From a virus, in the IMG/VR virus record IMGVR_UViG_3300042364_000053, positions 1-32,707 of that record: a stretch of 32,707 nt of DNA; one strand, written 5' to 3'. The notes beneath the pieces were generated by a model. It was given only the letters and a program-made list of their open reading frames with translations. It had not been told where the DNA came from and ran no database searches. Below are positions 59-16,016 of this stretch, in pieces (positions within the stretch are counted from its first letter, which is position 1; each line of letters opens with the position of its first letter). The translations under genes and the position numbers were made by a program.

Positions 59-74
59 GTCTAGGACCCTAGAC
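59..74. promoter_or_regulatory. GTCTAG palindrome, copy 1
   Basis: GTCTAGGACCCTAGAC has 6-bp inverted arms (GTCTAG/CTAGAC) around GACC. It ends 27 nt before the ATG of the first gene and is followed by an AACGAAAG leader. It is one of about eight copies in the first 10 kb. Either a dimeric DNA-binding protein or an RNA stem with a 4-nt loop would explain the shape. Confidence 0.75.
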
Positions 75-101
75 CCAACACCAACGAAAGAGAGAACACC
101 A

Positions 102-731
102 ATGAGATACGGAAACCTTGCAATCAGGACCATCGCCTTCAACCTGCGTGACATGGGCAGGACCATCACCGACTTTGACCGTCGTACTGCCGCTGATGCC
201 CTTGATCAGATGCTTGATGCGCTCATGCGGTCAGACGATCAGATGGTCGCCAAGTGTCAGCAGGTGCGTGACCTGAAGGAGAAGATCATGGACATCGAGG
301 AGACCAACCTTCAGCAGGGATGCTCCCTTCAGGAGAAGGACGTACGCATCATGCGTCTTGAGGAGGACCGCAACTGGTACAAGAATGCCCACACCACACT
401 GTGTGAGGAGTTTGCCGAGAAGAATCGCCTCATCGATGCCCTGAGGTCGGACCTTGATGGCACGGCACGTCATGCGGCATCCTTGGAGAACCAACTCAAG
501 GAACAGCAGAATCCCAAGGTCGAGACCAAGGGATTCCGTGCCATGGTCCAATGGCGTTCCGACGAGCAGGATGATGTGGACCCAATCGAGGTCTTCATCG
601 CGCAGACCGAGGACTCCTACGAGGATGAGCACTTTGTGTTCTTCTACGCAGGTGACTACCCGGAGGCTGAGATCCGCCATGCGTACAGCCGTGAGTGTTC
701 CCCTGAGGAATGGTACATCATCCCGGATTGA
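102..731 (+). CDS. early protein with coiled coil, unknown function
   Basis: The product is 209 aa and I do not recognise its family. Residues from about 45 to 140 are rich in E, K, L and Q with heptad-like spacing (LKEKIMDIEE, LEDRNWYKN, SLENQLKEQQ), which suggests a long coiled coil and oligomerisation. The C-terminal 60 residues are acidic and aromatic and look like a small folded domain. The ATG at 102 follows an AACGAAAGAGAG leader downstream of palindrome copy 1. The stop codon at 729-731 overlaps the -35 box of the next promoter. Its position, before the RNA polymerase gene and behind host-type signals, suggests early expression. A role in host takeover is only a guess from position. 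Confidence 0.75.
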   Translation: MRYGNLAIRTIAFNLRDMGRTITDFDRRTAADALDQMLDALMRSDDQMVAKCQQVRDLKEKIMDIEETNLQQGCSLQEKDVRIMRLEEDRNWYKNAHTTLCEEFAEKNRLIDALRSDLDGTARHAASLENQLKEQQNPKVETKGFRAMVQWRSDEQDDVDPIEVFIAQTEDSYEDEHFVFFYAGDYPEAEIRHAYSRECSPEEWYIIPD

Positions 732-755
732 CAATTCCCGGGCTTCTGGTAGGAT
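728..755 (+). promoter_or_regulatory. host-type extended -10 promoter upstream of the GP88-like gene
   Basis: A perfect TTGACA lies at 728-733, then 16 nt, then TAGGAT at 750-755 preceded by TGG (extended -10). The spacer begins ATTCC and ends CTGG, the same ends as in the promoter at 3394-3421. Transcription should start near 762, at the foot of a strong hairpin. Confidence 0.7.
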
Positions 756-759
756 GCTT

Positions 760-798
760 GGTGGGTCGGGGTGTGGACGTTCCATGCCCTGACCCGCC
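760..798 (+). other. strong hairpin at predicted 5' end of transcript
   Basis: The left arm at 760-771 pairs with the right arm at 787-798 over 12 positions, two of them G-T wobbles. An inner TGGA/TCCA stem extends it. It begins at the predicted start of the promoter at 728-755. There is no T-run after it, so it is not a typical terminator. It could protect the 5' end of the mRNA or act as an attenuator. Confidence 0.5.
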
Positions 799-800
799 TT

Positions 801-816
801 GTCTAGGACCCTAGAC
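801..816. promoter_or_regulatory. GTCTAG palindrome, copy 2
   Basis: The sequence is identical to copy 1 (GTCTAGGACCCTAGAC). It lies 45 nt downstream of the -10 box at 750-755, inside the predicted 5' UTR. It ends 19 nt before the ATG at 836, with an AACGAAAGGAAAGG leader between. Confidence 0.78.
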
Positions 817-835
817 CGCAACGAAAGGAAAGGTC

Positions 836-1654
836 ATGCAACTCAACGTTCTCCATCAGTCAGTCGTGTCGCCACCGTGGCGCACCATCACGGACGCCTC
901 CAAGTTGGCGTTTCAGCATCACTTCGATGTGCTGTTCAAGAAGAAGTCGATCCCCTTCGAGCGGATCCACCGTCAGATCCTGACGCCACCGTCAGCCAAC
1001 GCCAAGTTGTCCAAAGGCAGCGTCCCGATCTATGGCCTGACCTTGGCTCCCGCCGGATCCTCGGGTTACCAGTTGTGCCCATGGCGTAGCCCCGAGTGCG
1101 AGGCTGCCTGCCTTGGGATCACCGCAGGTCGCTCACGGTTCAGCAACGTGCTTCAGGCACGCATCAACAAGACCCGCCTGCTGATGACCCGTCCGTACGA
1201 GTTCATGCGCCAGTTGTACGTCGAGTTGGACAAGGTCGCCATGTCCCACATCGGTACGCGCTGGCTGTTCAGGTCCAATGTCCTCAGTGACATCCCGTGG
1301 GAGGACATCGCTGAAGATATGTACATCGCTGCCACAGGTGCTGACTTCTACGACTATACGAAATCATTCCACCGTGCCATGAAGTCACTACGGGAGCCGT
1401 CCATGCCGCACCTTGTCCTGTCCCACAGCGGCTGGAACATGGACCAGTGCAGGTGCTACATGGACCACGGTGGTACTGCTGCGTTCGTCTTCAACATCCG
1501 CAGGGGTCAGCCCTTGCCTGCCCAGTACTGTGGGTATGCCGTCATCGACGGCGACCTCACGGATGACCGCTGCTCGGATCCCGAGGGCGTCATCGTCGGT
1601 CTTCGTGCCAAGGGCAACGTGGTTGCCGATGGCAAGTTCATCACCAACGTCTAG
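836..1654 (+). CDS. GP88-like early protein
   Basis: The product is 272 aa. It resembles the phage 'gene product 88' family (Pfam GP88) known from actinobacteriophages and others. Visible signs are a Cys cluster around residues 80-95 (LCPW..PECEAACLG), a central YDYTKS segment near residue 170, and a C-terminal half with QCRCY and a glycine-rich VVADGKF end. The biochemical role of GP88 is unknown. The cysteines could bind a metal, but that is inference. The ATG at 836 has a strong GAAAGGAAAGG site 5-10 nt before it. The stop codon TAG lies in a GTCTAGAC half-repeat that precedes the next gene. Confidence 0.6.
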   Translation: MQLNVLHQSVVSPPWRTITDASKLAFQHHFDVLFKKKSIPFERIHRQILTPPSANAKLSKGSVPIYGLTLAPAGSSGYQLCPWRSPECEAACLGITAGRSRFSNVLQARINKTRLLMTRPYEFMRQLYVELDKVAMSHIGTRWLFRSNVLSDIPWEDIAEDMYIAATGADFYDYTKSFHRAMKSLREPSMPHLVLSHSGWNMDQCRCYMDHGGTAAFVFNIRRGQPLPAQYCGYAVIDGDLTDDRCSDPEGVIVGLRAKGNVVADGKFITNV

Positions 1655-1673
1655 ACCTTCTAGGATCCTAGAC
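1649..1673. promoter_or_regulatory. GTCTAG palindrome, copy 3, double site
   Basis: A short GTCTAGAC palindrome at 1649-1656 is followed at once by TTCTAGGATCCTAGAC at 1658-1673, which differs from the perfect form only in its first base. The short unit contains the TAG stop of the gene ending at 1654. The ATG of the next gene is 20 nt downstream, after ACGAAAGGAAAG. Confidence 0.72.
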
Positions 1674-1693
1674 CCAACACGAAAGGAAAGATC

Positions 1694-2146
1694 ATGTCTA
1701 TCGAATTCGCAATGAATCCCGAGGTCAAGGCCAAGTGGGTTGCTGCCCTGCGATCAGGTCAGTACACGCAGGGAACCTGTTTCCTCAAGCGTGATGTGAT
1801 TGTGATGGGAACCACTGACCAAGTCACCAAGTTCTGCTGCCTTGGAGTCCTCTGTGATATTGCTGCCCAGTCGGGAGTCAACGTCACTTGGAAAAACTTC
1901 TTGCAGTCGGGCTTTGACACTTGGTTTGCCTCGTCTACCGAGATCCAGCACGACATCCACTCTGAGCAACTGCCAGCGTGCGTCCAAGCGTGGGCTGGGT
2001 TGGACTCCAATGACCCCGTTGTCACGGCGCGTACTTTTGGATCCCAACGCGCCATGAACACCCGCCGAACCAGACTCAGCGAACTGAATGACCACGAGCG
2101 GTTTACCTTTTACGAGATCGCAGATCTCATCGAGGAACAACTATGA
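1694..2146 (+). CDS. conserved phage hypothetical protein
   Basis: The product is 150 aa. The N-terminal pattern MNPEVKAKWVAALRSG...QGT, followed by KFCCLGVLCDIAAQSG near residues 47-62, is typical of a small protein common in phages of many hosts. Its function is not known to me. Paired cysteines (CCLGVLC) and a C-terminal ELNDH-ERFTFYEIADLIEE segment are the most conserved-looking parts. The start follows a GAAAGGAAAG ribosome-binding leader behind palindrome copy 3. The stop overlaps the start of the next gene by ATGA, so the two are probably translated together. Confidence 0.75.
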   Translation: MSIEFAMNPEVKAKWVAALRSGQYTQGTCFLKRDVIVMGTTDQVTKFCCLGVLCDIAAQSGVNVTWKNFLQSGFDTWFASSTEIQHDIHSEQLPACVQAWAGLDSNDPVVTARTFGSQRAMNTRRTRLSELNDHERFTFYEIADLIEEQL

Positions 2147-2358
2147 GTCCCAACGAACTGGTCAACGCCATCATCCGTGAGGGTTCCTACTTGGCAACCA
2201 TTCACGGGGTCCGCAGGTCAGCCATGTGGTGGCACCTTGTTGACACCTATCGCCGCCAGTGCCCACACGGTATTGACATTGTGGATACCTGTGGTAATCT
2301 TGGTTCATCGGTCAAGGAAGCGTCTTCCGAGACCCCGTCAGTTTCACCAACCGTCTAG
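2143..2358 (+). CDS. small hypothetical protein
   Basis: The product is 71 aa and is not recognised. It has a basic, tryptophan-containing middle (RRSAMWWHLVDTYRR) and a Ser/Thr/Pro-rich tail. It starts with ATGA overlapping the upstream stop, with a GAGGAAC site just before it, so coupled translation is likely. Its last codons run into palindrome copy 4, whose GTCTAG supplies the TAG stop. A host-type promoter for the next gene is embedded near its 3' end. Confidence 0.6.
   Translation: MSPNELVNAIIREGSYLATIHGVRRSAMWWHLVDTYRRQCPHGIDIVDTCGNLGSSVKEASSETPSVSPTV
2273..2300 (+). promoter_or_regulatory. candidate extended -10 promoter inside the upstream gene
   Basis: TTGACA at 2273-2278, a 16-nt spacer ending TGG, and TAATCT at 2295-2300 give the same layout as the promoters at 728 and 3394. 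Transcription would start near 2307 and pass through palindrome copy 4 before the ATG at 2386. Confidence 0.5.
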
Positions 2359-2368
2359 GACACTAGAC
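2353..2368. promoter_or_regulatory. GTCTAG palindrome, copy 4
   Basis: GTCTAGGACACTAGAC has intact 6-bp arms and a GACA centre. It contains the TAG stop of the gene ending at 2358. An AAACGAAAGG leader follows, and the start codon at 2386 is 17 nt downstream. Confidence 0.72.
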
Positions 2369-2385
2369 AAACGAAAGGATTGGAC

Positions 2386-3078
2386 ATGGATCTCATCATC
2401 AACATCGACTCGTCCCAGTACGACACCCTCCGCAAGACCTTGGGTGTCTCCGACACGCCCCGTCTGTTCCCCGATGCGGACATCAAGGCGGTCGCCAACT
2501 CCATCATGGAGTCCCCGACCCACGGCAACGCCTTGGCGAACGCCATCGTGGACCAGTACGAGGCCCGCATCGCCTCCGAGGTCGCAGGCCAGATCGACGC
2601 ACAGGTCATCGCTGACTGCATCAACATGGATGACCTTGCCAACTGCATCGACCTGTCTCAGATGGATCACGGCGATATCGCAGGCAACATCGACCTCAGT
2701 GACCTTGCCCGTGAGATCGATGGCTCGGACATTGCCGAGCACTTTGCAGCCTCCGACATTGCCGAGATGATTGACCTGCATGAGGTCGCTAGGCACGTCG
2801 ATACCAACGAGATCGCCGACTTGGTCGCCGAGAAGGTCATTGAGGATCAGGCCGTCAAGGTCGCGGAGAACGTGTCGGTTGCCGACATTGTCGCCAACAT
2901 CAACCACAAGCAGATCGCCCTGCACCTCGTTCAGTCGGTCGTTCACAACGAGGAGTTCCGCAACTGCCTGATCAACGCGCTCATCGAGCGGCTTGTGCTG
3001 ACCGTCCCGATGTCCGACGAGTTCCTCAAGAGCGTTGACATGGCACGCAACATTCCGGTTTCGTCATCCCGTATCTGA
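2386..3078 (+). CDS. early protein made of 9-residue helical repeats
   Basis: The product is 230 aa. I prefer the ATG at 2386 because CGAAAGG ends 7 nt before it; a TTG at 2380 is too close. Residues about 65-150 are tandem 9-residue units of the form (D/E)-(I/L/V)-A-x-x-(I/V/F)-(D/A)-x-(S/H/N), for example DLAREIDGS, DIAEHFAAS, DIAEMIDLH and EVARHVDTN. Weaker units follow to about residue 184. The repeats are acidic and should form a regular helical or solenoid scaffold, perhaps a binding surface or nucleic-acid mimic. Similar Asp-rich repeat proteins exist in other phages but have no assigned function that I know of. Confidence 0.75.
   Translation: MDLIINIDSSQYDTLRKTLGVSDTPRLFPDADIKAVANSIMESPTHGNALANAIVDQYEARIASEVAGQIDAQVIADCINMDDLANCIDLSQMDHGDIAGNIDLSDLAREIDGSDIAEHFAASDIAEMIDLHEVARHVDTNEIADLVAEKVIEDQAVKVAENVSVADIVANINHKQIALHLVQSVVHNEEFRNCLINALIERLVLTVPMSDEFLKSVDMARNIPVSSSRI
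2578..2835 (+). repeat. tandem 27-nt (9-residue) coding repeats
   Basis: About nine degenerate 27-nt units encode residues 65-150 of the protein starting at 2386. There is one 5-residue insertion after the third unit (residues 92-96). The conserved core at the DNA level is roughly GACATTGCCGAG. The units are conserved in protein pattern more than in DNA, so they look old and under selection. Confidence 0.7.
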
Positions 3079-3089
3079 ACCTTTCGTTG

Positions 3090-3112
3090 TGAGGTGGGGC
3101 GCGCATACCTCA
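3090..3112 (+). other. small hairpin in intergenic gap
   Basis: TGAGGT at 3090-3095 pairs with ACCTCA at 3107-3112 across an 11-nt loop, in the 62-nt gap between two early genes. No T-run follows. This gap has no GTCTAG palindrome, unlike most early gaps. Confidence 0.3.
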
Positions 3113-3140
3113 ATAGCCACGCGCACTACAGGAGAACACC

Positions 3141-3407
3141 ATGTGGACAGGACAAGGACCGACAGAGCAGACCCCACCCGGGGCAACATACGTCTACAAC
3201 ACCATCAAGCCGCTCAAGGGCATGGAGGTTGTGGGACTGGGCGTCATGGATGACCGGGACAACCCCGGCGAGTTTGTTGCCACCCTCCTGCTTGGGGACC
3301 GCAAGACCGGGCAGGCGTTCGTCATCCGTGCATGGCGCGACGAGGAGCAGAATGGCCCCGGCTGGCTTGAGGTCACCGAGGTTCATCCCCGTGTTGACAA
3401 TTCCTGA
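3141..3407 (+). CDS. small hypothetical early protein
   Basis: The product is 88 aa and is not recognised. It looks like a compact beta-rich fold: alternating hydrophobic stretches (MEVVGLGVMDD, FVATLLLGD, AFVIRAWRD, WLEVTEVHP) separated by short acidic turns. The ATG at 3141 has an AGGAG site at 3130-3134. The 3' end overlaps the -35 box of the promoter at 3394, so this transcript probably continues into, or competes with, the next unit. There are no membrane segments or cysteines. Confidence 0.65.
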   Translation: MWTGQGPTEQTPPGATYVYNTIKPLKGMEVVGLGVMDDRDNPGEFVATLLLGDRKTGQAFVIRAWRDEEQNGPGWLEVTEVHPRVDNS

Positions 3408-3421
3408 TTCTCTGGTAGGAT
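3394..3421 (+). promoter_or_regulatory. extended -10 promoter giving a leaderless transcript
   Basis: TTGACA at 3394-3399, 16 nt, then TGG-TAGGAT with the hexamer at 3416-3421. Exactly 6 nt separate the -10 box from the ATG at 3428. Transcription would therefore start at or next to the start codon, and no ribosome-binding site is available. It is a close sequence relative of the promoter at 728-755. Confidence 0.68.
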
Positions 3422-3427
3422 CATGGC

Positions 3428-3631
3428 ATGAGTCGATTCACCATTACGGACACGGTGTCTGAGGTCATCCGTTGCCTCAAGGAAAGCGACACCGAGATGG
3501 CGTCCAACTACGCAGCACTGGTGCTTTGGAGAGTTGAGCATCACGGTTCTTGGCTAACCGATAACGAGCATGATCTCGTTGCCAAGTTGATTCCCGATCC
3601 GCCCAAGGCACGTCGCCGCAGGCGCAACTGA
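3428..3631 (+). CDS. small hypothetical protein, probably leaderless
   Basis: The product is 67 aa and is not recognised. It is largely helical with a very basic C-terminus (PPKARRRRRN), which suggests nucleic-acid or ribosome contact. The start at 3428 lies 6 nt after a TAGGAT -10 box, and there is no Shine-Dalgarno site upstream, so a leaderless mRNA is the simplest reading. It ends just before palindrome copy 5. Confidence 0.6.
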   Translation: MSRFTITDTVSEVIRCLKESDTEMASNYAALVLWRVEHHGSWLTDNEHDLVAKLIPDPPKARRRRRN

Positions 3632-3641
3632 ACCTGTCTGG

Positions 3642-3657
3642 GTCTAGGACCCTAGAC
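3642..3657. promoter_or_regulatory. GTCTAG palindrome, copy 5
   Basis: The sequence is identical to copies 1 and 2 (GTCTAGGACCCTAGAC). It lies 21 nt before the ATG at 3679, with an AACCGAAAGGA leader between. A GTCTGG just upstream may be a fragment of another copy. Confidence 0.77.
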
Positions 3658-3678
3658 AACAACCGAAAGGACTGCAAC

Positions 3679-4401
3679 ATGAGCAAGGCATTCACCACCA
3701 TCACCGATCTGGCCACGATCCCCGTCCCTGTCGCTACGCCGACCTACCAGCCCGTCCCTCAGGAGGAACTGTGGGAGCGCGTCATCGACAACGTCAGGTC
3801 GTTCGGGTACGACATCGTCCGTGAGACCCACCAGATGCACCGCAAGAACCCGTGGTTCATCTCCAAGGTCAGCCTGCGGAACCCCAACGCCCTGCGTAAC
3901 TCCGAGGAGATCGGCTGGGAGATCGGCGTGATCAACTCCTACGATGGCTCCAAGGCCGTTCGCCTGCTGTTCGGAGGCAACGTCTTTGCCTGCACCAACG
4001 GGCTGATCGTGGCTGATCACATCCTCCGTACCAAGCACACCTCAGGTGTGTGGAACCGTCTTCCCGCCATGCTGACCCAGACCATCAACAGGTTCGAGGT
4101 CGAGGTCAACAAGGCGGCGTACTTCTACGACAGGATCAAGGAGGTCACGTTCAACCGTGCGAACCTGTCGGACTTTGCCGTGCGTCTTGGACAGCAGGGA
4201 CTGCTGCCGAGGGCCAAGGTCGTGGATCTGGTGGAGGAGTCCATGACCCCATCCTTCGGGTACGACACCCGTGAGCGTCCGGTGCTGTGGAACGTCCACA
4301 ACGCCTACACGCACCTCGCCAAGGAATGGAATCCTGTCGAGGCTCCGCGAAAGATCATGGGAATGGAGCGCACGATGCGCGACCACTACGCATTGGTTTG
4401 A
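3679..4401 (+). CDS. DUF932-family protein
   Basis: The product is 240 aa. The pattern LLFGGNVFACTNGLIV near residues 95-111 and the late NVHNAYTHLAKE near residues 208-219 match the DUF932 family (phage/plasmid-like protein), in which a C-T/S-N-G segment and a W-x-x-x-NA-x-T segment are conserved. The biochemical function of DUF932 is not established; members sit on phages and plasmids near DNA-processing genes. This copy is shorter than many. It starts after a CCGAAAGGA site behind palindrome copy 5. Its TGA stop forms the TGn of a possible extended -10 box, and a strong terminator follows 43 nt later, so it is the last gene of the early block. Confidence 0.75.
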   Translation: MSKAFTTITDLATIPVPVATPTYQPVPQEELWERVIDNVRSFGYDIVRETHQMHRKNPWFISKVSLRNPNALRNSEEIGWEIGVINSYDGSKAVRLLFGGNVFACTNGLIVADHILRTKHTSGVWNRLPAMLTQTINRFEVEVNKAAYFYDRIKEVTFNRANLSDFAVRLGQQGLLPRAKVVDLVEESMTPSFGYDTRERPVLWNVHNAYTHLAKEWNPVEAPRKIMGMERTMRDHYALV

Positions 4402-4413
4402 TAGGATAGGGGC

Positions 4414-4477
4414 GCACCGCAAGGTGTTCTCCTTTCCTTTCGGCCCCTCGTCACCTTTGGGTGGCGGGGGGTTTTTT
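4414..4477 (+). ncRNA. possible short RNA between DUF932 gene and terminator
   Basis: TGATAGGAT at 4399-4407 is an extended -10 box without a good -35. A transcript starting near 4414 would contain a CACC-GCAA-GGTG stem with a GNRA-type loop (4415-4426) and end at the terminator at 4444-4477, about 65 nt in total. No ORF fits. It may simply be the 3' UTR of the early operon. Confidence 0.2.
4444..4477 (+). terminator. rho-independent early terminator
   Basis: A 12-bp stem (4444-4455 with 4460-4471, including two G-T pairs) encloses a TTTG loop and is followed by six T residues at 4472-4477. It closes the early block and separates it from the RNA polymerase promoter just downstream. T7 also has an early terminator, but downstream of its polymerase gene; here it is upstream. 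Confidence 0.88.
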
Positions 4478-4485
4478 ATTTGCCC

Positions 4486-4501
4486 GTCTAGGATCCTAGA
4501 C
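4486..4501. promoter_or_regulatory. GTCTAG palindrome, copy 6, over the RNAP promoter
   Basis: GTCTAGGATCCTAGAC is a perfect 16-bp palindrome. It lies 14 nt upstream of a TATAAT box, so it covers the -35 position (about 4493-4498). Unlike the other copies, no GAAAGG leader follows, and the site would lie outside a leaderless transcript. That favours DNA binding at this copy. Confidence 0.78.
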
Positions 4502-4515
4502 ACCATTCATTTGGT

Positions 4516-4521
4516 TATAAT
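4516..4521 (+). promoter_or_regulatory. -10 box of leaderless RNAP promoter
   Basis: TATAAT is the consensus -10 hexamer. It ends 6 nt before the ATG at 4528, the same spacing as at 3416-3421 and 3428. No recognisable -35 is present; palindrome copy 6 sits there. The gene also lacks a Shine-Dalgarno site, supporting leaderless expression. Confidence 0.65.
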
Positions 4522-4527
4522 GCGTCT

Positions 4528-6921
4528 ATGCGTCAATCGAAACTGGACGAGGAGATGGTGGAACTGGGGCGACAAAGGTATCGCAACAGGTCAGCCAAGG
4601 CAACGCAGATCACCTCCGAGAGCAACACCATCCCCGGGCGGATGATGCTCAACAGGTGCACCACCGAACTGGTAGATGAGATCGACAAGTGGATGGCCAA
4701 GGCACGCTCGGGACCGGGCCGCAAGCATCGCTGTTTGCCTTTCCTTGAGCAGATCAGTTCGGAGAAGGCCGCAGTCATCGCATCCAAGGTGGTCATCGAT
4801 GCCTTGTCTGCCGAGCGGATGCTCACGACCACATGCATCGCCGTTGGTCGTGCCCTAGAGGACGAGATCCTGCTTGATGACCTTGCGTCAAACAGCCCTG
4901 ACTTCCTCAGGCGCATACAGCAGCGCACATTCAAGTCAGTCGGCCAGAAGTTCAAGCGCAGGTTTGCCCGTGATGCCGCCCGTGCAGTCGATCTGGTCAC
5001 CAAGCGGTGGGCCAAGGCCGACGCCCTTGCTGTGGGCCTGCTGCTTGTGGAGATGATTGCCCAGCGCACAGGCATCATCGAGATCCTCACCAAGTTGAAC
5101 GCACGGGGACGCAAGTACTGCATCATTCAGGCAGCCCCGGACATCCGCAGGTGGGTCAAGGGCTGCCACGATTACCACGAATCGCTGGAGCCGATGTTCC
5201 TGCCCACAATCGAGAAGCCGCTTCAGTGGAATAACCCTTGGGTGGGCGGCTATGCGTCGATTGCGTGGAAACCAAGGCCGCTGGTCAAGAGCAGGAACAA
5301 GGCGTATCAGGAATCACTGTCATCGCTCATGCCGTCAGCCGTGTACGACGCCGTGAACTTCATCCAGAACACGCCATGGGAAGTCGATCAGCAAATCCTT
5401 GGGCTGGTCAAGCATTGCTGGCAGGAGGGTCTTGAGGTTGACTCGATGCCCCCATCGCGTGACGAGGAGATCCCCTCCAAGCCGCTGGACATCGACACCA
5501 ATCTGGAATCCAGACGCCATTGGCGCAAGGCTGCCGCAAAGATCCACTTCCTCAACGAGTCATACGAGTCCCAGCGACTGTTGGCACTCAAGACCCTGTT
5601 CGTTGCGGACAAGATGAATTCCCATCAGCGCCTGTGGTTCCCACATCAGTTGGACTTCCGTGGGCGTGGGTATCCCCTGCCGCTGTTCCTGCATCCTCAG
5701 GGCGTGTCGTACGCCAAGGCCATGCTCAGGTTCTCTGACGGCAAGCCTGTCACGACAGACGCTCAGGCCCAGTCCCTGTACGTCCATGCGGCCAACAAGT
5801 TCGGACTCGACAAGAAGACCATCGAGGAGCGCACAGTCTGGGTCGAGCAGAACCGCTCCATGATCGAGGCCATCGGCAATGACCCATACTCCACAAAGAA
5901 GTGGCTTGATGCAGACGAGCCATTTGCCTTTGTCGCAGCCTGTAGGGAACTCACCGAGTTCTGGAACTACGGAAGCGGATTCATCTCCAACCTGCCAATC
6001 GCCATGGACGCCACCACCCAAGGACTACAGATCTACGCCATGCTGCTGCGTGATCCCGTCGCTGGGCTGGCAACTAATGTCCTTCCTTCGGAGAGGCCGT
6101 CAGATCCCTACCAGTTCGTCGCAAACGCCGTCATCGCCAAGTTGAAGGCTGATCACGATCCCCTGTCCAAGCAGTTGCTCGAGTTTGGCATCGACCGCAC
6201 GACAACCAAGCGTCAGACCATGACCCTGCCCTACGGGCTGACCCAGCACTCATGCATCTCGTACACCCGAGAGTGGCTTGAGGAGCGCATCAGGAAGACC
6301 GGGAGCAACCCGTGGGGTCTGGAGATGTACAAGCCTGTGGTCCACCTAGGCAAGATCATCTGGGCTTCCATCGATGACGTTGTGGGTTCCGCCAAGAAGG
6401 GCATGGACTTCCTCAAGGGTTGCATGGCCGCCATGATCGAGCATGACGTGACGCCCTACTGGATGACCCCCATTGGGTTCCCGGTCAGGATGCGCTACGA
6501 GAACTATGACCGGATCACGGTGTCCACCCGCATCGGAGCCAAGGCCAAGGTGCTGTCTCTTCGTCAGGAGAACGGACGCCAGTCCAAGCGCAAGGCGCTC
6601 AATGGAGGCCCCGCAAACTACATCCACTCCTTGGACGGCTTTGGCGGCCTATTGGGCCATACCGTAAACCTGTGCGCCCAATCGGGCATCAATCACCTCG
6701 GCTCGGTCCACGACCAGATCATGTGCCTTTCAGGCGACTACCCACAGGTATACCACAGGGTACGGGAGGCTACCGTTGAGTTGTTCTCAAGGGATCTTCT
6801 TAGGGAGTTCCATGAGGGAGTATTGACTTTTCTCCCAAAGGGTGCTACACTTCCAGATGTTCCCGAGTACGGTACTCTGGACATATCGAAAGTGATGGAC
6901 TCCCAGTACTACTTCAACTAG
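4528..6921 (+). CDS. T7-like single-subunit DNA-directed RNA polymerase
   Basis: The 797-aa product transcribes phage middle and late genes. Key T7 RNAP residues are all present. Motif A has the metal-binding Asp at 494 (LPIAMDATTQGLQ). Motif B has Lys 561 and Tyr 569 (TKRQTMTLPYG), with the same 8-residue spacing as T7 K631/Y639. Motif C has Asp 729 (SVHDQIMCL). The C-terminus ends in aromatic residues (QYYFN), near the active site in T7. It is about 85 residues shorter than T7 RNAP (883), mostly in the N-terminal promoter-recognition part. It sits behind its own terminator, palindrome and leaderless promoter. The 3' end carries a candidate promoter for the next gene. Confidence 0.97.
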   Translation: MRQSKLDEEMVELGRQRYRNRSAKATQITSESNTIPGRMMLNRCTTELVDEIDKWMAKARSGPGRKHRCLPFLEQISSEKAAVIASKVVIDALSAERMLTTTCIAVGRALEDEILLDDLASNSPDFLRRIQQRTFKSVGQKFKRRFARDAARAVDLVTKRWAKADALAVGLLLVEMIAQRTGIIEILTKLNARGRKYCIIQAAPDIRRWVKGCHDYHESLEPMFLPTIEKPLQWNNPWVGGYASIAWKPRPLVKSRNKAYQESLSSLMPSAVYDAVNFIQNTPWEVDQQILGLVKHCWQEGLEVDSMPPSRDEEIPSKPLDIDTNLESRRHWRKAAAKIHFLNESYESQRLLALKTLFVADKMNSHQRLWFPHQLDFRGRGYPLPLFLHPQGVSYAKAMLRFSDGKPVTTDAQAQSLYVHAANKFGLDKKTIEERTVWVEQNRSMIEAIGNDPYSTKKWLDADEPFAFVAACRELTEFWNYGSGFISNLPIAMDATTQGLQIYAMLLRDPVAGLATNVLPSERPSDPYQFVANAVIAKLKADHDPLSKQLLEFGIDRTTTKRQTMTLPYGLTQHSCISYTREWLEERIRKTGSNPWGLEMYKPVVHLGKIIWASIDDVVGSAKKGMDFLKGCMAAMIEHDVTPYWMTPIGFPVRMRYENYDRITVSTRIGAKAKVLSLRQENGRQSKRKALNGGPANYIHSLDGFGGLLGHTVNLCAQSGINHLGSVHDQIMCLSGDYPQVYHRVREATVELFSRDLLREFHEGVLTFLPKGATLPDVPEYGTLDISKVMDSQYYFN
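6823..6851 (+). promoter_or_regulatory. candidate promoter for the ssDNA-binding protein operon
   Basis: TTGACT at 6823-6828, a 17-nt spacer ending TGC, and TACACT at 6846-6851 form a good sigma70-type extended -10 promoter inside the 3' end of the polymerase gene. It points to the ssDNA-binding protein gene, 99 nt downstream, through palindrome copy 7. Confidence 0.5.
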
Positions 6922-6936
6922 TCTAGGATCCTAGAA
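6921..6936. promoter_or_regulatory. GTCTAG palindrome, copy 7
   Basis: GTCTAGGATCCTAGAA matches the perfect form except for the last base. Its first base is the last base of the polymerase stop codon. A GAAAGG site follows directly and the ATG at 6950 is 13 nt away, the closest spacing of the set. Confidence 0.7.
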
Positions 6937-6949
6937 GAAAGGCAACACC

Positions 6950-7561
6950 ATGCAAGGCAAGAAGAAGTTCGTTCGTATGACATCCCCTCTCGGCATCGCG
7001 GTCTATCCCAAACTCAACAAGCCAGACACCAAGTTCGACGCCAACGGCGTCTACAGCGTGGATCTGGACCTTGATCCCAACGCCAAGGAGACCAAGGATT
7101 TCCTCGCTGCAATTCGCAAGATTCAGGAGGACGAGTACAAGGCGACCTGCGAGGCCAAGGGCGGCAAGAAGTTGAAGAAGGCCGACCTTCCGATCAAGAC
7201 CACCGAGGACGGGCTGACCCGCTTCAAGTTCAAGTTGAAGGCCAAGGGCGGATCCGAGGAGCGTTCGTGGGACCAGAAGCCCACCCTGTTCGACGCCAAG
7301 GGCAACCCTCTGGTCAACGCTCCCAGCATCGGCTCGGGCAGCAAGATCAAGGTCGCCTTCGAGGTGGTCCCCTACTTCACAGCCATGGTTGGCGCTGGGC
7401 TGTCGTTCCGTATGCGTGCCGTTCAGATCTGCGATCTGGTCGAGTACACACCCGGCGACAACTTCAACGCCTTTGGCTTCAAGGCCACGGACGGCTTCGA
7501 GGTCACGGCTCCCCCGACCGATGCGACCGAGACCGACTCCGACGAGGAGAGTGACTTCTGA
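6950..7561 (+). CDS. ssDNA-binding protein (T7 gp2.5-like, DUF2815 type)
   Basis: The product is 203 aa. The N-terminal half (FVRMTSPLGIAVYPKLNKPD, then KFDANGVYSVDLDLDP) is typical of the gp2.5-like/DUF2815 ssDNA-binding proteins of podoviruses. Residues about 10-175 form the OB-fold region. The last 15 residues are strongly acidic and end in Phe (SDEESDF), the tail by which T7 gp2.5 contacts the polymerase and helicase. It should coat single strands during replication and promote annealing. The ATG at 6950 follows GAAAGG behind palindrome copy 7. It overlaps the next gene by 4 nt. Confidence 0.88.
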   Translation: MQGKKKFVRMTSPLGIAVYPKLNKPDTKFDANGVYSVDLDLDPNAKETKDFLAAIRKIQEDEYKATCEAKGGKKLKKADLPIKTTEDGLTRFKFKLKAKGGSEERSWDQKPTLFDAKGNPLVNAPSIGSGSKIKVAFEVVPYFTAMVGAGLSFRMRAVQICDLVEYTPGDNFNAFGFKATDGFEVTAPPTDATETDSDEESDF

Positions 7562-7953
7562 AACTGACGCTCAAGGTTGACCCTACACCCGCCTCAAGAC
7601 CACGGGTTACGAGGTGGGGTGCCTACTACGGGAAGACCTATGAGCGTTTCAGGAAGCAGGCCAAGGCAGCCCTTGGTGCCATCAATAAGCCCAAGGGCTG
7701 CCCCCTTGCCTGCCCTCTCGTCGTGACGGTCACGTTCTTCTGCCGATCCCCAAAGAAGCCCACCAACGTGTGGCCCAAGGGCGACATCGACAACCACCAG
7801 AAAGCCATCCTCGATGCCCTCAATGAGTGGGCATGGAAGGATGACGTTCAGATAATGAAGATCGTTGCCGTCAAGTGCTACAGCAAGGATCCGCGAATCG
7901 AAATCGAATGGAAGGAACATGGAACACAAGGAATCGGAGTTCGTACAGCATGA
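7558..7953 (+). CDS. RusA-family Holliday junction resolvase, CTG start
   Basis: The product is about 131 aa and takes the place of T7 endonuclease I (gp3) between the ssDNA-binding protein and primase genes. RusA hallmarks are present: an N-terminal basic RPRVTR segment, the GDIDNHQKAILDALN block with catalytic Asp residues, and KDDVQI. It should resolve branched replication intermediates before packaging. No ATG occurs in this frame upstream of the conserved region; an in-frame stop lies at 7552-7554. The best start is CTG at 7558, overlapping the upstream TGA, with GAGGAGAG 7 nt before it. The GTG at 7723 would remove the N-terminal strand. A fused product by frameshift is a less likely alternative. 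Confidence 0.8.
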   Translation: MKLTLKVDPTPASRPRVTRWGAYYGKTYERFRKQAKAALGAINKPKGCPLACPLVVTVTFFCRSPKKPTNVWPKGDIDNHQKAILDALNEWAWKDDVQIMKIVAVKCYSKDPRIEIEWKEHGTQGIGVRTA

Positions 7954-9508
7954 GCCATGCCCCAAGTGTGGCTCGCAGGACAACCTAGCCCGGTATTCGG
8001 ATGGGCATGGGTACTGCTTCGGGTGCAAGTACTATGAGACAGGGGTCGGCCAGTCACTTCCAGAAGTGACCAAGAAACTCGATACTCTTATTGATGTCGA
8101 GTACTCGGCCCTACGCAAGCGTGGCATCACGGAGGACACCTGTCGGTTCTGGGGATACGGCGTAGGCCAGTTCAACGGCCAGACCGTTCAGGTAGCCCAG
8201 TACGTCAAGGACCGTGATGTGGTGGCGCAGAAGTTGCGCTTCCCCTCCAAGGACTTCATGCTGATCGGTGACGCCAAGGGGCTGCCCCTGTACGGCTCTC
8301 ACCTGTGGCGTGACGGGGGACGCATGGTCACGGTGACCGAGGGTGAGATCGACGCCCTGACCATCAGCCAGTTGTTCGGCAACCGATGGCCTGTGGTGTC
8401 TGTCCCCAGCGGCGCTGCTGGTGCGTACAAGGCATTCCAGAACAACCTTGAGTGGCTTGAGAAGTTCGACTCTGTGGTGCTGATGTTCGATGATGACGAG
8501 CCGGGGCGCAAGGCGGCCAAGGAGTGCGCCATGCTTCTGACTCCCGGCAAGGCAAAGATCGGTACGATCCCCGAGTACAAGGATGCCAATGATGCCCATG
8601 TCGCAGGTCAAGGCAAGCGTGTCATCGATGCTGTCTATGGTGCCAAGGCTTATCGTCCTGATGGCGTTGTTCTTGGCTCGGACCTGTGGGATATCGTCAA
8701 CACCGAGGACATCAACGACTCGATCCCATATCCGTGGCAGGCCCTGAACGAGAAGTTGCTGGGCATCCGAAAGGGTGAACTCGTTGTCCTGACTTCAGGT
8801 ACAGGAATCGGCAAGTCATCTGTGTGCCGCGAGATGGTGTGCCACCTGATCCGCAACGGCAAGAAGGTCGGTCTGCTGATGCTTGAGGAGTCCGTCAAGA
8901 GGACCGCAAGGAACCTGATGGGCATCCACCTGAACACCCCGCCGTATTTCTGGGAGGACCGTGGCATCACGGCAGACCAGAAGCGGGAGGCGTTCGAGGC
9001 AACGGTAGCCAACGTCGTGATGTTCGACCACTTCGGATCCGTCGATCCCGACAACCTGCTCGCCAAGACGCGCTACATGATCAAGTCATGCGGATGCGAC
9101 TACATCTTCCTAGACCACCTCAGCATCGTCGTGTCTGGGCTAGGTGACGGCGACGAGCGCAGGCTCATTGACAACGCCATGACATCCCTGCGTTCCCTCG
9201 TTGAGGAGACACAGGCAGCCATGTTTGTGGTATCCCATCTGAGGCGTCCTGATGGGGATCGTGGGCATGAGGAGGGGGCTTCGACCTCCCTTGCCCAACT
9301 CAGAGGTTCACACTCAATTGCACAGTTGGCAGATGCCGTGATCGGCATGGAAAGGAATCAGCAAGGTGACGCTCCAAACGAACTGGTACTCAGGGTTCTT
9401 AAGAACCGTTTCACGGGAGATACAGGCATTGCGGGAACGCTGCGGTATTTCAAGGAGTCGGGAAGGCTGGCAGAATTCAACATGGAGACAACAGACGATG
9501 ACATTTGA
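7919..9508 (+). CDS. bifunctional DNA primase-helicase (T7 gp4-like)
   Basis: The 529-aa product primes and unwinds DNA at the fork. A zinc ribbon opens it (Cys 14/17 and Cys 33/36). A TOPRIM domain follows (VTEGEIDALTISQL, then VVLMFDDDEPGRKAA). The C-terminal half is a RecA-like DnaB/gp4 helicase: Walker A GTGIGKSS with Lys 299, Walker B CDYIFLDHLS, a SHLRRPDGD motif and an arginine finger near NRFTGDTG. The C-terminus is acidic (TTDDDI), like the T7 gp4 tail that binds polymerase. I chose ATG 7919 because the zinc motif follows directly; the frame is open further up inside the RusA gene. It overlaps RusA by 35 nt. Confidence 0.95.
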   Translation: MEHKESEFVQHEPCPKCGSQDNLARYSDGHGYCFGCKYYETGVGQSLPEVTKKLDTLIDVEYSALRKRGITEDTCRFWGYGVGQFNGQTVQVAQYVKDRDVVAQKLRFPSKDFMLIGDAKGLPLYGSHLWRDGGRMVTVTEGEIDALTISQLFGNRWPVVSVPSGAAGAYKAFQNNLEWLEKFDSVVLMFDDDEPGRKAAKECAMLLTPGKAKIGTIPEYKDANDAHVAGQGKRVIDAVYGAKAYRPDGVVLGSDLWDIVNTEDINDSIPYPWQALNEKLLGIRKGELVVLTSGTGIGKSSVCREMVCHLIRNGKKVGLLMLEESVKRTARNLMGIHLNTPPYFWEDRGITADQKREAFEATVANVVMFDHFGSVDPDNLLAKTRYMIKSCGCDYIFLDHLSIVVSGLGDGDERRLIDNAMTSLRSLVEETQAAMFVVSHLRRPDGDRGHEEGASTSLAQLRGSHSIAQLADAVIGMERNQQGDAPNELVLRVLKNRFTGDTGIAGTLRYFKESGRLAEFNMETTDDDI

Positions 9509-9677
9509 GAAGGATCCAATCATCGAGATCTCCGATCTCAGGACAGACAACGAGATCCTCAGGGCTGGAGTCAGGAACTGGTCCCAGCGTTGCGTCGAAC
9601 TGGAAGAGGAAGTCAAGCGTCTTCGGGCCTTGCTTCACGTCAGCATTGAGAAGGCCATGTACGAGGGGGAAGGATGA
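9498..9677 (+). CDS. small coiled-coil protein
   Basis: The product is 59 aa and overlaps the end of the primase-helicase gene by 11 nt. The ATG at 9498 has a GGAGA site 9 nt upstream and I prefer it to earlier in-frame starts buried in the helicase gene. The sequence has hydrophobic heptads (ISDLRTDNEILRAGV, CVELEEEVKRLRALL), which predict a short coiled coil. Function is unknown. It is coupled to the next gene by an ATGA overlap. Confidence 0.65.
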   Translation: MTFEKDPIIEISDLRTDNEILRAGVRNWSQRCVELEEEVKRLRALLHVSIEKAMYEGEG

Positions 9678-10006
9678 AGCAGAGGAAACTTACCCCAGAG
9701 CAGTCCGAGGAGATCCGCAGGCTGTCGGAGACCATGTCGAACATCGAGATTGCACGCCGATACAACGTCAGCCCACAGTTGATATCCTGCATCCTGCTGT
9801 ACGGATACGGCAACAGGCCCAAGCCAAAGGTCACGATGGACTTGGTCGCGTACAGGGAATGGGAGGATGTGGCTGCCGAGTACAATCGGCGCAATCCCCA
9901 TGATCAGATCACGACCAAGCAGGCTAGGGATTGCTTCAGGCACGCGCAGAAGAAGTTGATCAAGGAACTGGCTAAGGCAGGCATTACCGAAAGAACGCTT
10001 GTCTAG
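9674..10006 (+). CDS. helix-turn-helix protein
   Basis: The product is 110 aa. Residues about 7-42 (LTPEQSEEIRRLS, then NIEIARRYNVSPQLIS) look like a resolvase/transposase-type helix-turn-helix: a Q/E-rich first helix, an IARRYNVS turn, and a recognition helix. The second half is basic and helical (TTKQARDCFRHAQKKLIKE). It is probably a small DNA-binding protein. It is the only clear HTH protein in the window, so it is a candidate ligand of the GTCTAG palindromes, but nothing proves this. Its TAG stop is part of palindrome copy 8. Confidence 0.65.
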   Translation: MKQRKLTPEQSEEIRRLSETMSNIEIARRYNVSPQLISCILLYGYGNRPKPKVTMDLVAYREWEDVAAEYNRRNPHDQITTKQARDCFRHAQKKLIKELAKAGITERTLV

Positions 10007-10015
10007 TCACTAGAC
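10001..10015. promoter_or_regulatory. GTCTAG palindrome, copy 8, 3-nt centre
   Basis: GTCTAGTCACTAGAC has both 6-bp arms but only three central bases (TCA). It contains the stop of the HTH gene and lies 20 nt before the ATG of the DNA polymerase gene, with AAAGAAAGGAAAG between. It is the last copy in the window. Confidence 0.7.
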
Positions 10016-10035: not shown

Positions 10036-11775
10036 ATGGACATCTACTTTGACATCGAGACCAACCCAATCACCGATTGGATGCACCTGAGTGACCTGAA
10101 GGAACTGAGGTCCTTCGCGGTTGCCATCGAGGACGAGCCTGCACGCACAGTGTCCCTGAAGGAGGGCATCGAACTACTGAACGGGGCTACCACCTTGATC
10201 GGTCACAACCTGATTGGGTTCGACCTGCCCGCGCTCAGGAAGTTGGTTCCGTCCTTTACCCGGGATCACAACATCTTCGATACCGCTGTGGCGTGTCGCC
10301 TGCTGCACACCAACATCGCTGATGCGGACTACAGGGATCCCACCATGCCCAAGGAACTGGTGGGTTTGCACTCCCTGAAGGCATGGGGACACAGGCTCAA
10401 GTTCCCCAAGACCGATGGTGGAGACTTTGAGGCTGGTCCCAAGTTGGACGAGTACTGCCGCAACGATGTCGAACTGGTCCGGGTATTGGCTAGGGATCTG
10501 CTCAAGCATCCTGCCAAGGCGTTCAAGTCGCTGGACCTTGAGATGCGCTTTGCCCAGATCATCAAGCAGCAGGAGCGCGTGGGCATCCCGTTCAACGTCA
10601 AGGCCGCAGAGAGACTGCACGCCGAGATCCGCAAGCAGATGCTTGAGATCGAGCAGCAGATGCAGTCCATGTTCCCGCCCGTGGTTCAGGAGCGCGTGTC
10701 GGAGAAGACTGGTAAGAAACTCAAGCCAAAGATTCTTACGTTCAACCCCGGCTCCCGACTCCAGATTGCAGACCGACTCAAGGACATGCACGGGTGGCAA
10801 CCCACAGAGTTCACCCCAGACGGCAGGCCCAAGGTTGACGAGACTGTGCTCCAGTCGCTGTCCTATCCAGAGGCCAAGGTCCTAGCCGAGTACCTGACCC
10901 TTGGCAAGCGCCTTGGGCAATTGGCAGACGGCGACGAGGCGTGGCTCAAGGTGGTCACCCCCAAGGGACGCATCCACGGGCGCGTGAACACCAATGGAGC
11001 CATTACAGGGCGCTGCACCCACAGCAGACCCAACATGGCTCAGGTGCCCACAGAGCCTGCCTACAGGGCGCTGTTTGCGGCACCCAAGGGCAAGGTCATG
11101 GTGGGAGCCGATGCCTCGGGCCTTGAGTTGCGTTGCCTTGCCCATTACCTCGGAGGGTGGGATGGGGGCGAGTACGCCAAGGCTGTGACCACCGGAGACA
11201 TCCACTGGACCAACGCTCTTGCCTTTGGTCTGACCTCAGACAAGGTGATGGACAAGGGCAACCCAGCCCACAAGCAGGCACGCAACCAAGCCAAGGGCGC
11301 GATCTACGCTCTGATCTACGGGGCAGGCAACGAGAAGTTGGGCATGGTCCTTGGCGGCGACAAGCGCACAGGAGCCAAGGCACGGGCTAACTTCGAGTCC
11401 AAGGTCCCCGCCTACCTGCGGCTCAAGGAGACCGTCACTAGGAACTTGGGTTCCCGTGGGTGGCTCAAGGGTCTTGACGGCAGGCCCCTGTACCCACGCT
11501 CGGAACACGCTGCATTGAACACCCTGTTGCAGTCAGCGGGTGCTGTGGTGATGAAGCAGGCTTGCGTCTATGCCCACATGAAACTCGATGCATCCGAGGT
11601 CGAGCAGGTGGCTGCTGTGCATGACGAGTATCAATTCATCACGACGCCCGACTACGCAGATCAAGTTGGTAAAGTTGTCGTGCAGGCAATCCGGGATGCC
11701 GGAACCTTCTTCGAGATGAGATGTCCTCTAGACGGTGAATACCGAATAGGAGCAAATTGGTCCGAAACTCACTAA
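10036..11775 (+). CDS. family A DNA polymerase (T7 gp5-like)
   Basis: The 579-aa product is the replicative polymerase. The 3'-5' exonuclease domain has Asp 6 and Glu 8 (YFDIETN), LIGHNLIGFDLPALRKL, and YCRNDVELVRVL. The polymerase domain has motif A Asp 359 (GADASGLELR), motif B RNQAKGAIYALIYG with Arg 416, Lys 420 and Tyr 424, and motif C VHDEY with Asp 530. Tyr 424 corresponds to T7 Tyr 526 and E. coli Pol I Phe 762, linked to acceptance of dideoxynucleotides. It is about 125 residues shorter than T7 gp5 (704), so the thioredoxin-binding loop is probably missing or reduced. The ATG follows GAAAGGAAAG. The 3' end overlaps a homing-endonuclease-like gene. Confidence 0.96.
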   Translation: MDIYFDIETNPITDWMHLSDLKELRSFAVAIEDEPARTVSLKEGIELLNGATTLIGHNLIGFDLPALRKLVPSFTRDHNIFDTAVACRLLHTNIADADYRDPTMPKELVGLHSLKAWGHRLKFPKTDGGDFEAGPKLDEYCRNDVELVRVLARDLLKHPAKAFKSLDLEMRFAQIIKQQERVGIPFNVKAAERLHAEIRKQMLEIEQQMQSMFPPVVQERVSEKTGKKLKPKILTFNPGSRLQIADRLKDMHGWQPTEFTPDGRPKVDETVLQSLSYPEAKVLAEYLTLGKRLGQLADGDEAWLKVVTPKGRIHGRVNTNGAITGRCTHSRPNMAQVPTEPAYRALFAAPKGKVMVGADASGLELRCLAHYLGGWDGGEYAKAVTTGDIHWTNALAFGLTSDKVMDKGNPAHKQARNQAKGAIYALIYGAGNEKLGMVLGGDKRTGAKARANFESKVPAYLRLKETVTRNLGSRGWLKGLDGRPLYPRSEHAALNTLLQSAGAVVMKQACVYAHMKLDASEVEQVAAVHDEYQFITTPDYADQVGKVVVQAIRDAGTFFEMRCPLDGEYRIGANWSETH

Positions 11776-15276: not shown

Positions 15277-16016
15277 GCAACCATCAGCAAGTGACAATCG
15301 TTCGAGACACCGCAGAGACAAACAATGAGACCGACGCGCTGGCAGAAGCAATCTCTCAGGCACAGACCCCAGCCGCTACCGACGCTCCAGCCCAGCCAGC
15401 CCAAGCCCGACCCGAGTGGCTCCCTGAGAAGTTTCAGGACCCCACAGAACTGGCTAAGGCGTATTCTGAACTGGAGCGCCGACTGTCTTCTGGCTCTGGT
15501 CCGCTAGATCAGAACTCGCTTGAGACCTACTCCAAGGAGTTCTCCGAGAACGGGGATCTCAGCGACGAGTCGATCCAGAAGATCGCAGGCATGGGCATCC
15601 CAGAGCATCTGGTGCGTGCCTATGTGGATGGGCAAAAGGCTCTGGTGGACACGAACACCAAGACCATGATGTCCTACGCAGGCGGCGAACAGGCGTACAC
15701 CCAGATCCAGAACTGGGCAGCGGACAACATTGCCGAGGACGAGATCGATGCGTTCAACAGCATCATCGAGTCTGGCAACATGTCGAACATCAAGATGGCA
15801 ATTCAGGGACTCAAGGCTCGCTATGAGCAGGCCAACGGCAAGCAGACCGGACGCCTGATTCAGGGCGAGATGTCTGGTCCCGCAGGAGGCGCTTTCAGGT
15901 CGATCTCCGAGATCGTTGAGGCCATGAAGGATCCTAGGTATGCGCGTGACCCGGCATATCGCAAGGATGTCGAGTCTCGGGTCGCCCTGTCCAACGCACT
16001 AGGAGTCGCTCGATGA
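15273..16016 (+). CDS. capsid assembly scaffolding protein, T7 gp9-like
   Basis: The 247-aa product has the usual podovirus scaffold layout. It has a low-complexity, Ala/Pro-rich N-terminus, a PEWLPEKFQDPTELAKAY segment near residue 48 that is a hallmark of these proteins, a helical middle, and a C-terminal end (DPRYARDPAYRKDVESRV) expected to contact the capsid protein. It guides procapsid assembly and then leaves. It is a little shorter than T7 gp9. It lies between portal and capsid genes, but three small membrane/lipoprotein genes are inserted before the capsid. Confidence 0.9.
   Translation: MSNHQQVTIVRDTAETNNETDALAEAISQAQTPAATDAPAQPAQARPEWLPEKFQDPTELAKAYSELERRLSSGSGPLDQNSLETYSKEFSENGDLSDESIQKIAGMGIPEHLVRAYVDGQKALVDTNTKTMMSYAGGEQAYTQIQNWAADNIAEDEIDAFNSIIESGNMSNIKMAIQGLKARYEQANGKQTGRLIQGEMSGPAGGAFRSISEIVEAMKDPRYARDPAYRKDVESRVALSNALGVAR

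Follow-up and report, generated by a model that had tools for sequence, protein, structure and literature searches.

Dispersed palindromes in a group of T7-like phages as likely operators of a phage-encoded repressor

The palindrome GTCTAG-N3/4-CTAGAC recurs in front of early and middle genes in a 32,707-bp record of an uncultured virus (IMG/VR IMGVR_UViG_3300042364_000053; the whole analyzed stretch is hereafter called the window), where it is likely to serve as the operator of a phage-encoded, sequence-specific, self-regulated and probably dimeric repressor. An earlier note, written from the window alone, had offered two readings, the operator of a dimeric regulator or an RNA stem that gates translation, and related phages lend the former good support through their arm classes, the flanking of one particular gene and natural swaps. 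T7-like phages are usually regarded as strictly lytic and as controlled via their own polymerase. The window phage is of this type, as it encodes a single-subunit RNA polymerase, a Gp2.5-like single-stranded DNA (ssDNA)-binding protein, a primase-helicase and a DNA polymerase, followed by head and tail genes; its RNA polymerase shares no more than about 35% identity with the polymerases of isolated phages.

Palindrome copies in the window

The exact pattern was found six times (at 59, 801, 2353, 3642, 4486 and 10001), compared with a chance expectation of 0 in 100 shuffles, and copies with one mismatch were found at 1658 (TTCTAG...) and 6921 (...CTAGAA), the mismatch lying in both cases in the outermost pair. 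This confirms the eight copies listed previously and the observation that single-base changes fall solely in that pair, and the genome-wide count places the pattern far above chance frequency. The next ATG follows the palindrome end after 27, 19, 20, 17, 21, 26, 13 and 20 nt, in the order of the copies, in agreement with the reported range of 13 to 27 nt. The positions of the copies and of three genes proposed as targets are as follows.

59..74: operator-like palindrome GTCTAGGACCCTAGAC, 5′ of gene 102-731
801..816: palindrome GTCTAGGACCCTAGAC, 5′ of gene 836-1654 (GP88 family)
1658..1673: palindrome TTCTAGGATCCTAGAC with the outermost mismatch, 5′ of gene 1694-2146
2353..2368: palindrome GTCTAGGACACTAGAC, 5′ of gene 2386-3078; encloses the stop codon TAG of open reading frame (ORF) 2143-2358
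3642..3657: palindrome GTCTAGGACCCTAGAC, 5′ of gene 3679-4401 (DUF932)
4486..4501: palindrome GTCTAGGATCCTAGAC, at the putative RNA polymerase promoter, with a terminator upstream and a −10 box downstream
4528..6921, + strand: single-subunit (T7-like) RNA polymerase gene, main proposed target
6921..6936: palindrome GTCTAGGATCCTAGAA with the outermost mismatch, overlapping the end of the RNA polymerase gene and 5′ of the ssDNA-binding protein gene
6950..7561, + strand: Gp2.5-like ssDNA-binding protein gene, proposed target
10001..10015: palindrome GTCTAGTCACTAGAC with a 3-nt centre, 5′ of the DNA polymerase gene; encloses the stop codon of ORF 9674-10006
10036..11775, + strand: DNA polymerase gene, proposed target

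No credible copy was detected in the window beyond 10,015, where the three-mismatch matches, at 15494 and 28590, do not exceed chance level. The proposal that palindrome and ribosome-binding leader form one cassette did not hold: the exact ACGAAAGG leader follows only the copies at 801, 1658 and 2353, a CGAAAGG leader also follows the copy at 3642, and the others are followed by looser AG-rich Shine-Dalgarno leaders, apart from the copy at 4486, which has none. The palindrome at 801 lies about 39 nt past the putative start of a promoter-like site at 728-755. Promoter-like stretches that are nearly identical to each other (TTGACAATTCC...TCTGGTAGGAT) occur twice in the window, at 728-756 and at 3394-3428; transcription from the second would be leaderless, starting at or close to the ATG at 3428. 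The tetranucleotide CTAG occurs 58 times in the window, about half of the 122 occurrences predicted from base composition, and 16 of the 58 lie inside palindromes.

Arm classes in related phages

Relatives, all of them uncultured records, were gathered through RNA polymerase and terminase searches. Absence of the motif from the same gene starts in relatives, the outcome that the earlier note had named as telling against its reading, was looked for and not observed: about 50 related T7-like phages each have 4-19 copies of a palindrome of 15-16 bp, located at gene starts of the same kinds as in the window. The arms are uniform inside each genome and differ between genomes, falling into 12 classes (GTCTAG-N3, GTCTAG-N4, TTCTAG-N3, TTCTAG-N4, GTCTAA-N3, TTATAG-N3, GTCCAA-N3, ATCCCA-N4, ATCCCG-N4, GTCTCA-N4, GTTTAC-N4 and TGAAAC-N3), so that the near-constancy of the arms holds inside the window genome but not across relatives. 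Since all copies of a genome change their arms in concert, a factor that reads sequence is needed. The previously noted lack of copies in the late region was upheld in all nine long records examined, all copies being early or middle and none lying among the head and tail genes.

Spacing between the arms is fixed within a genome at 238 of the 243 sites, the copy at 10001 with its 3-nt centre being an exception, and in several genomes asymmetric centres are found in either orientation (for example caa/ttg in L072), the orientation being fixed in L082 and L122. Single arm changes fall in the outermost pair in 42 of 57 cases; 12 of the 57 give G-U pairs, compared with about 9.5 expected, indicating no bias. 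Many palindromes of the GTTTAC class (L159, L161) read GTTTACAGGAGTAAAC, with the Shine-Dalgarno sequence AGGAG inside the palindrome. Matches to GTCTAGGAYCCTAGAC in contigs without similarity to the window (such as L019, L021, L027 and L032) were set aside. One relative, L086 (JAIXOQ010000009.1), is a 13-kb contig of this phage type inside a Proteobacteria-labelled metagenome-assembled genome, and is probably either mis-binned or an infecting phage.

The palindrome at the RNA polymerase gene

Of 34 relatives, 33 carry a palindrome in the interval that separates an intrinsic terminator from the ATG of the RNA polymerase gene. The corresponding elements of the window are listed below; here and in the relatives, promoters were called from consensus only.

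4441..4480, + strand: intrinsic-terminator-like hairpin and T-run, directly 5′ of the RNA polymerase promoter; a similar one is present in relatives
4516..4521, + strand: putative −10 box TATAAT of the RNA polymerase gene, from which transcription would start at or near the ATG at 4528

In some relatives the palindrome lies just past an extended −10 box (TGCTATAAT in L056, TGCTATACT in L082) and therefore covers the start point, while in others, including the window, it lies just upstream of the −10 box, so that the window palindrome at 4486 is probably outside the RNA polymerase mRNA. Overlap with the promoter is conserved and the side is variable, which fits a repressor operator rather than a leader RNA, because a palindrome 5′ of the −10 box would not form part of a transcript from that promoter.

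The leftmost early gene as the candidate regulator

The leftmost early gene is the most likely source of the regulator; it encodes a 200-290-aa protein, of which 44 homologs were found. At least 27 of these have their own genome's palindrome on both sides of the gene, the downstream copy usually lying 1-8 nt 3′ of the stop codon or enclosing it and, in the cases read, being followed by a terminator. A similar layout surrounds the positional equivalent of this gene in the distant phages L159 and L161. The homologs make up a family new to description, alanine-rich and predicted to be all-helical (mean pLDDT 85-87), with weak fold matches that include ParB-type proteins (ParB/Spo0J/SopB) and no relative in isolated phages and plasmids at the tblastn level.

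The window record does not include the stretch from the terminase to the first early gene, and the leftmost gene lies beyond its truncated end. In the close neighbor L020, which has further palindrome copies in that stretch, the gene is present at 4184-4873. The first 75 bp of the window match L020 at 96%, and L020 was the sole match in an exact search for the left neighbor of the window; it shares one metagenome with L014, and L014 and the window are identical wherever the two overlap. Repeats of TTTACTGTCATCA / CATCAC lie 3′ of the regulator's terminator (L048:2520-2700, L020:4955-4990) and are possibly an origin or phage promoters.

Co-inheritance of palindrome class and leftmost gene

Comparison of closely related phages suggests that the palindrome class follows the leftmost gene and not the phage backbone. 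L010 and L011 are about 96% identical in DNA over 6 kb and their RNA polymerases are identical at 787 of 795 residues (99%), yet the former carries TTATAG and the latter GTCTAA palindromes, and their leftmost genes share no DNA similarity; some accessory genes differ too. The terminases of L057 and L082 are 98% identical, with regulators at 20% and different motifs, whereas L057 and L056 (terminase 85%, regulator 82%) share a motif. Likewise, L119 differs in motif from L125 (terminase 95%, regulator 23%) and shares its motif with L132 (terminase 92%, regulator 93%). Each of the nine regulator clusters formed at ≥60% identity has one arm class, compared with six of nine terminase clusters formed at ≥95%, and motif class changes 11 times on the regulator tree and 14 times on the terminase tree (19 when shuffled; minimum 8). 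Because regulator identities level off near 20% and the distances are thus saturated, the argument rests on the swap pairs and clusters. Whole control systems appear to have been swapped between otherwise near-identical T7-like phages.

A proposed repression scheme

We propose that operators are placed at the RNA polymerase promoter, on both flanks of the regulator gene and, for most early and middle genes, in the gap that separates the ribosome-binding site from the preceding stop codon. The flanking of the regulator gene on both sides would provide autoregulation. At the phage RNA polymerase gene, bound regulator would block initiation by the host RNA polymerase, and at the other sites it may halt elongation or nearby starts in the manner of a stoperator. 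Late genes would do without sites, since their expression depends on the phage polymerase that is itself controlled. By shifting specificity together, the regulator and all of its operators would give each phage type a private control group, possibly an immunity group.

Several observations weigh against this scheme. Many copies are mid-operon without an obvious promoter, for example directly 3′ of the RNA polymerase stop codon, so that repression there would have to act on elongation, and the early region shows no clear enrichment of TTGACA-type promoter matches (3 versus 1.4 expected). The leftmost-gene protein matches no Pfam or PHROG family, ParB HTH Pfam families included, and no PDB fold significantly. 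Two weak homologs show incomplete patterns, L144 having no copy just downstream and L137 no palindrome. In a partial Mantel test on all 36 rows, the regulator had no effect beyond terminase distance (r = 0.01), and in a 27-row subset the effect was weak (r = 0.15, p = 0.01); moreover, the L130 and L134 regulators are only about 35% alike and have a common motif.

Alternative explanations

A stem-loop in the 5′ leader, read as an RNA structure that stabilizes the mRNA or gates translation, would account for the position of most copies 13-27 nt 5′ of a start codon and beside a Shine-Dalgarno sequence, which in L159 and L161 the palindrome GTTTACAGGAGTAAAC even encloses. In the window and in the L072, L013, L075 and L161 types, however, the palindrome lies outside the putative RNA polymerase transcript, there is no G-U excess, the predicted hairpin energies of the classes span −7.9 to −0.9 kcal/mol, and the arms are uniform within genomes and switched together between them, while the centre is free in orientation in several genomes. 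The argument that a 3-nt centre favors a loop fails as well, because spacing is fixed within genomes and the copy at 10001 is an exception. On the grounds of position, G-U statistics and predicted stem strength we rejected the RNA stem, although among the alternatives it keeps the largest, still small, share of probability. Close behind it, and very improbable, is a partition (ParB-like centromere) or replication site, to which the weak fold resemblance of the regulator to ParB/Spo0J/SopB and the many dispersed sites, a feature shared with the plasmid repressor KorB, would point; against it, ParA (PF13614) was found in none of 15 records, the regulator has no ParB HTH Pfam match, and the distribution of the sites follows the starts of genes and the RNA polymerase promoter.

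The reader of the palindromes could instead be another protein. Classes might mirror different hosts if the sites were operators of a host-encoded regulator; this ranks lower again, as the classes go with a phage gene that is flanked by sites on both sides. Still less credible is the small protein encoded at 9674-10006, between the helicase and DNA polymerase genes, which has a clear helix-turn-helix (HTH; CENP-B_N/HTH_38-like) and a stop codon overlapped by a palindrome. Its recognition helix (SPQLVSTVIRYGY type) hardly varies from one motif class to another, and L072, L074 and L075, all of which bear palindromes, lack its HTH half; the protein was rejected for these two reasons; the relatives that keep the C-terminal half only are at L072:12864, L074:7485 and L075:11072. 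Least likely of all is a promoter of the phage's own T7-like RNA polymerase. Palindromes 5′ of early and middle genes in a T7-like phage might suggest one, but they are absent from late genes, and T7-type promoters are non-palindromic, unlike this site. Furthermore, the L010 and L011 polymerases differ at only 8 of 795 residues, none of them within 655-700, the stretch matching the specificity loop, and their palindromes differ throughout. This comparison of near-identical polymerases with entirely different palindromes indicates that the phage polymerase is not the reader, and the promoter was rejected on this basis.

Relation to known systems

One repressor acting on many dispersed palindromic sites is familiar from KorB of IncP plasmids and from the inverted-repeat operators of phage phiC31. 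These belong to other replicons and involve other proteins, and only the weak ParB-type fold resemblance is seen here. Cluster A mycobacteriophages (L5, Bxb1, TipsytheTRex) carry 20-30 repressor sites per phage at promoters and in short intergenic gaps; sites and repressors diverge together between related phages, and the sites are 13 bp long, asymmetric, oriented with transcription and read by a monomer (PMC6550527, PMC9283540). Repressor bound at such stoperators blocks elongation (PMC9283540). The phages described here are similar in having many sites, putatively repressor-bound, in the intergenic gaps of one phage, and in the joint divergence of sites and candidate repressor, as judged from swap pairs and cluster purity and not supported by the all-row partial Mantel test. 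Unlike cluster A, they have 15-16 bp palindromes, are T7-like phages with their own RNA polymerase, and have a candidate repressor that matches no library family.

In the temperate T7-like phages LUZ100, HTVC109P and CRP-125, a regulator has been proposed to act at the RNA polymerase promoter (PMC10134795), as we propose here for another autographivirus RNA polymerase. These three isolated relatives have a MarR-like regulator and an integrase at the corresponding place and no repeated palindrome near the polymerase. In contrast, the present regulator does not match MarR families, a tyrosine integrase was found near the RNA polymerase gene in none of 15 records, and no resolvase was found in the records examined. 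Phages without a detected integrase, resolvase or ParA may use the system for early-gene shut-off, for exclusion of like phages or for a non-integrated dormant state. We tentatively suggest, as somewhat less than an even chance, an integrase-less T7-like lineage with genome-wide repressor-operator immunity, in which the repressor and its 10-20 operators are replaced as a unit between near-identical phages, and, just as tentatively, that many mutually blind specificity groups would result; such immunity would perhaps keep related phages out or sustain a dormant or carrier state without integration.

The RNA polymerase and most early genes of this branch, in which no integrase was detected, seem to be subject to one dedicated repressor acting at a dozen operators. 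The 12 natural operator classes with their matched proteins would offer a system for studying joint specificity change of a repressor and its sites, would help to sort uncultured phages into immunity groups and would supply orthogonal repressor-operator pairs.

A conserved element outside the palindromes

A conserved element (GAGGTGGGGCGCGCATACCTC...ACGCGC) is located at 3086-3130 of the window, shortly 3′ of the stop codon of gene 2386-3078, and recurs at L054:90, L056:8588, L059:4352, L061:569, L072:1261 and 5822, L080:4184, L086:1760 and L161:12812. It has no credible match in Rfam. Its stem covaries round an invariant GTGGGGNGCGCATAC, and its loop CGCG pairs with a downstream copy in a covarying manner too (GTGCG/CGCAC, GAGCG/CGCTC), suggesting that the element is probably an H-type pseudoknot RNA.

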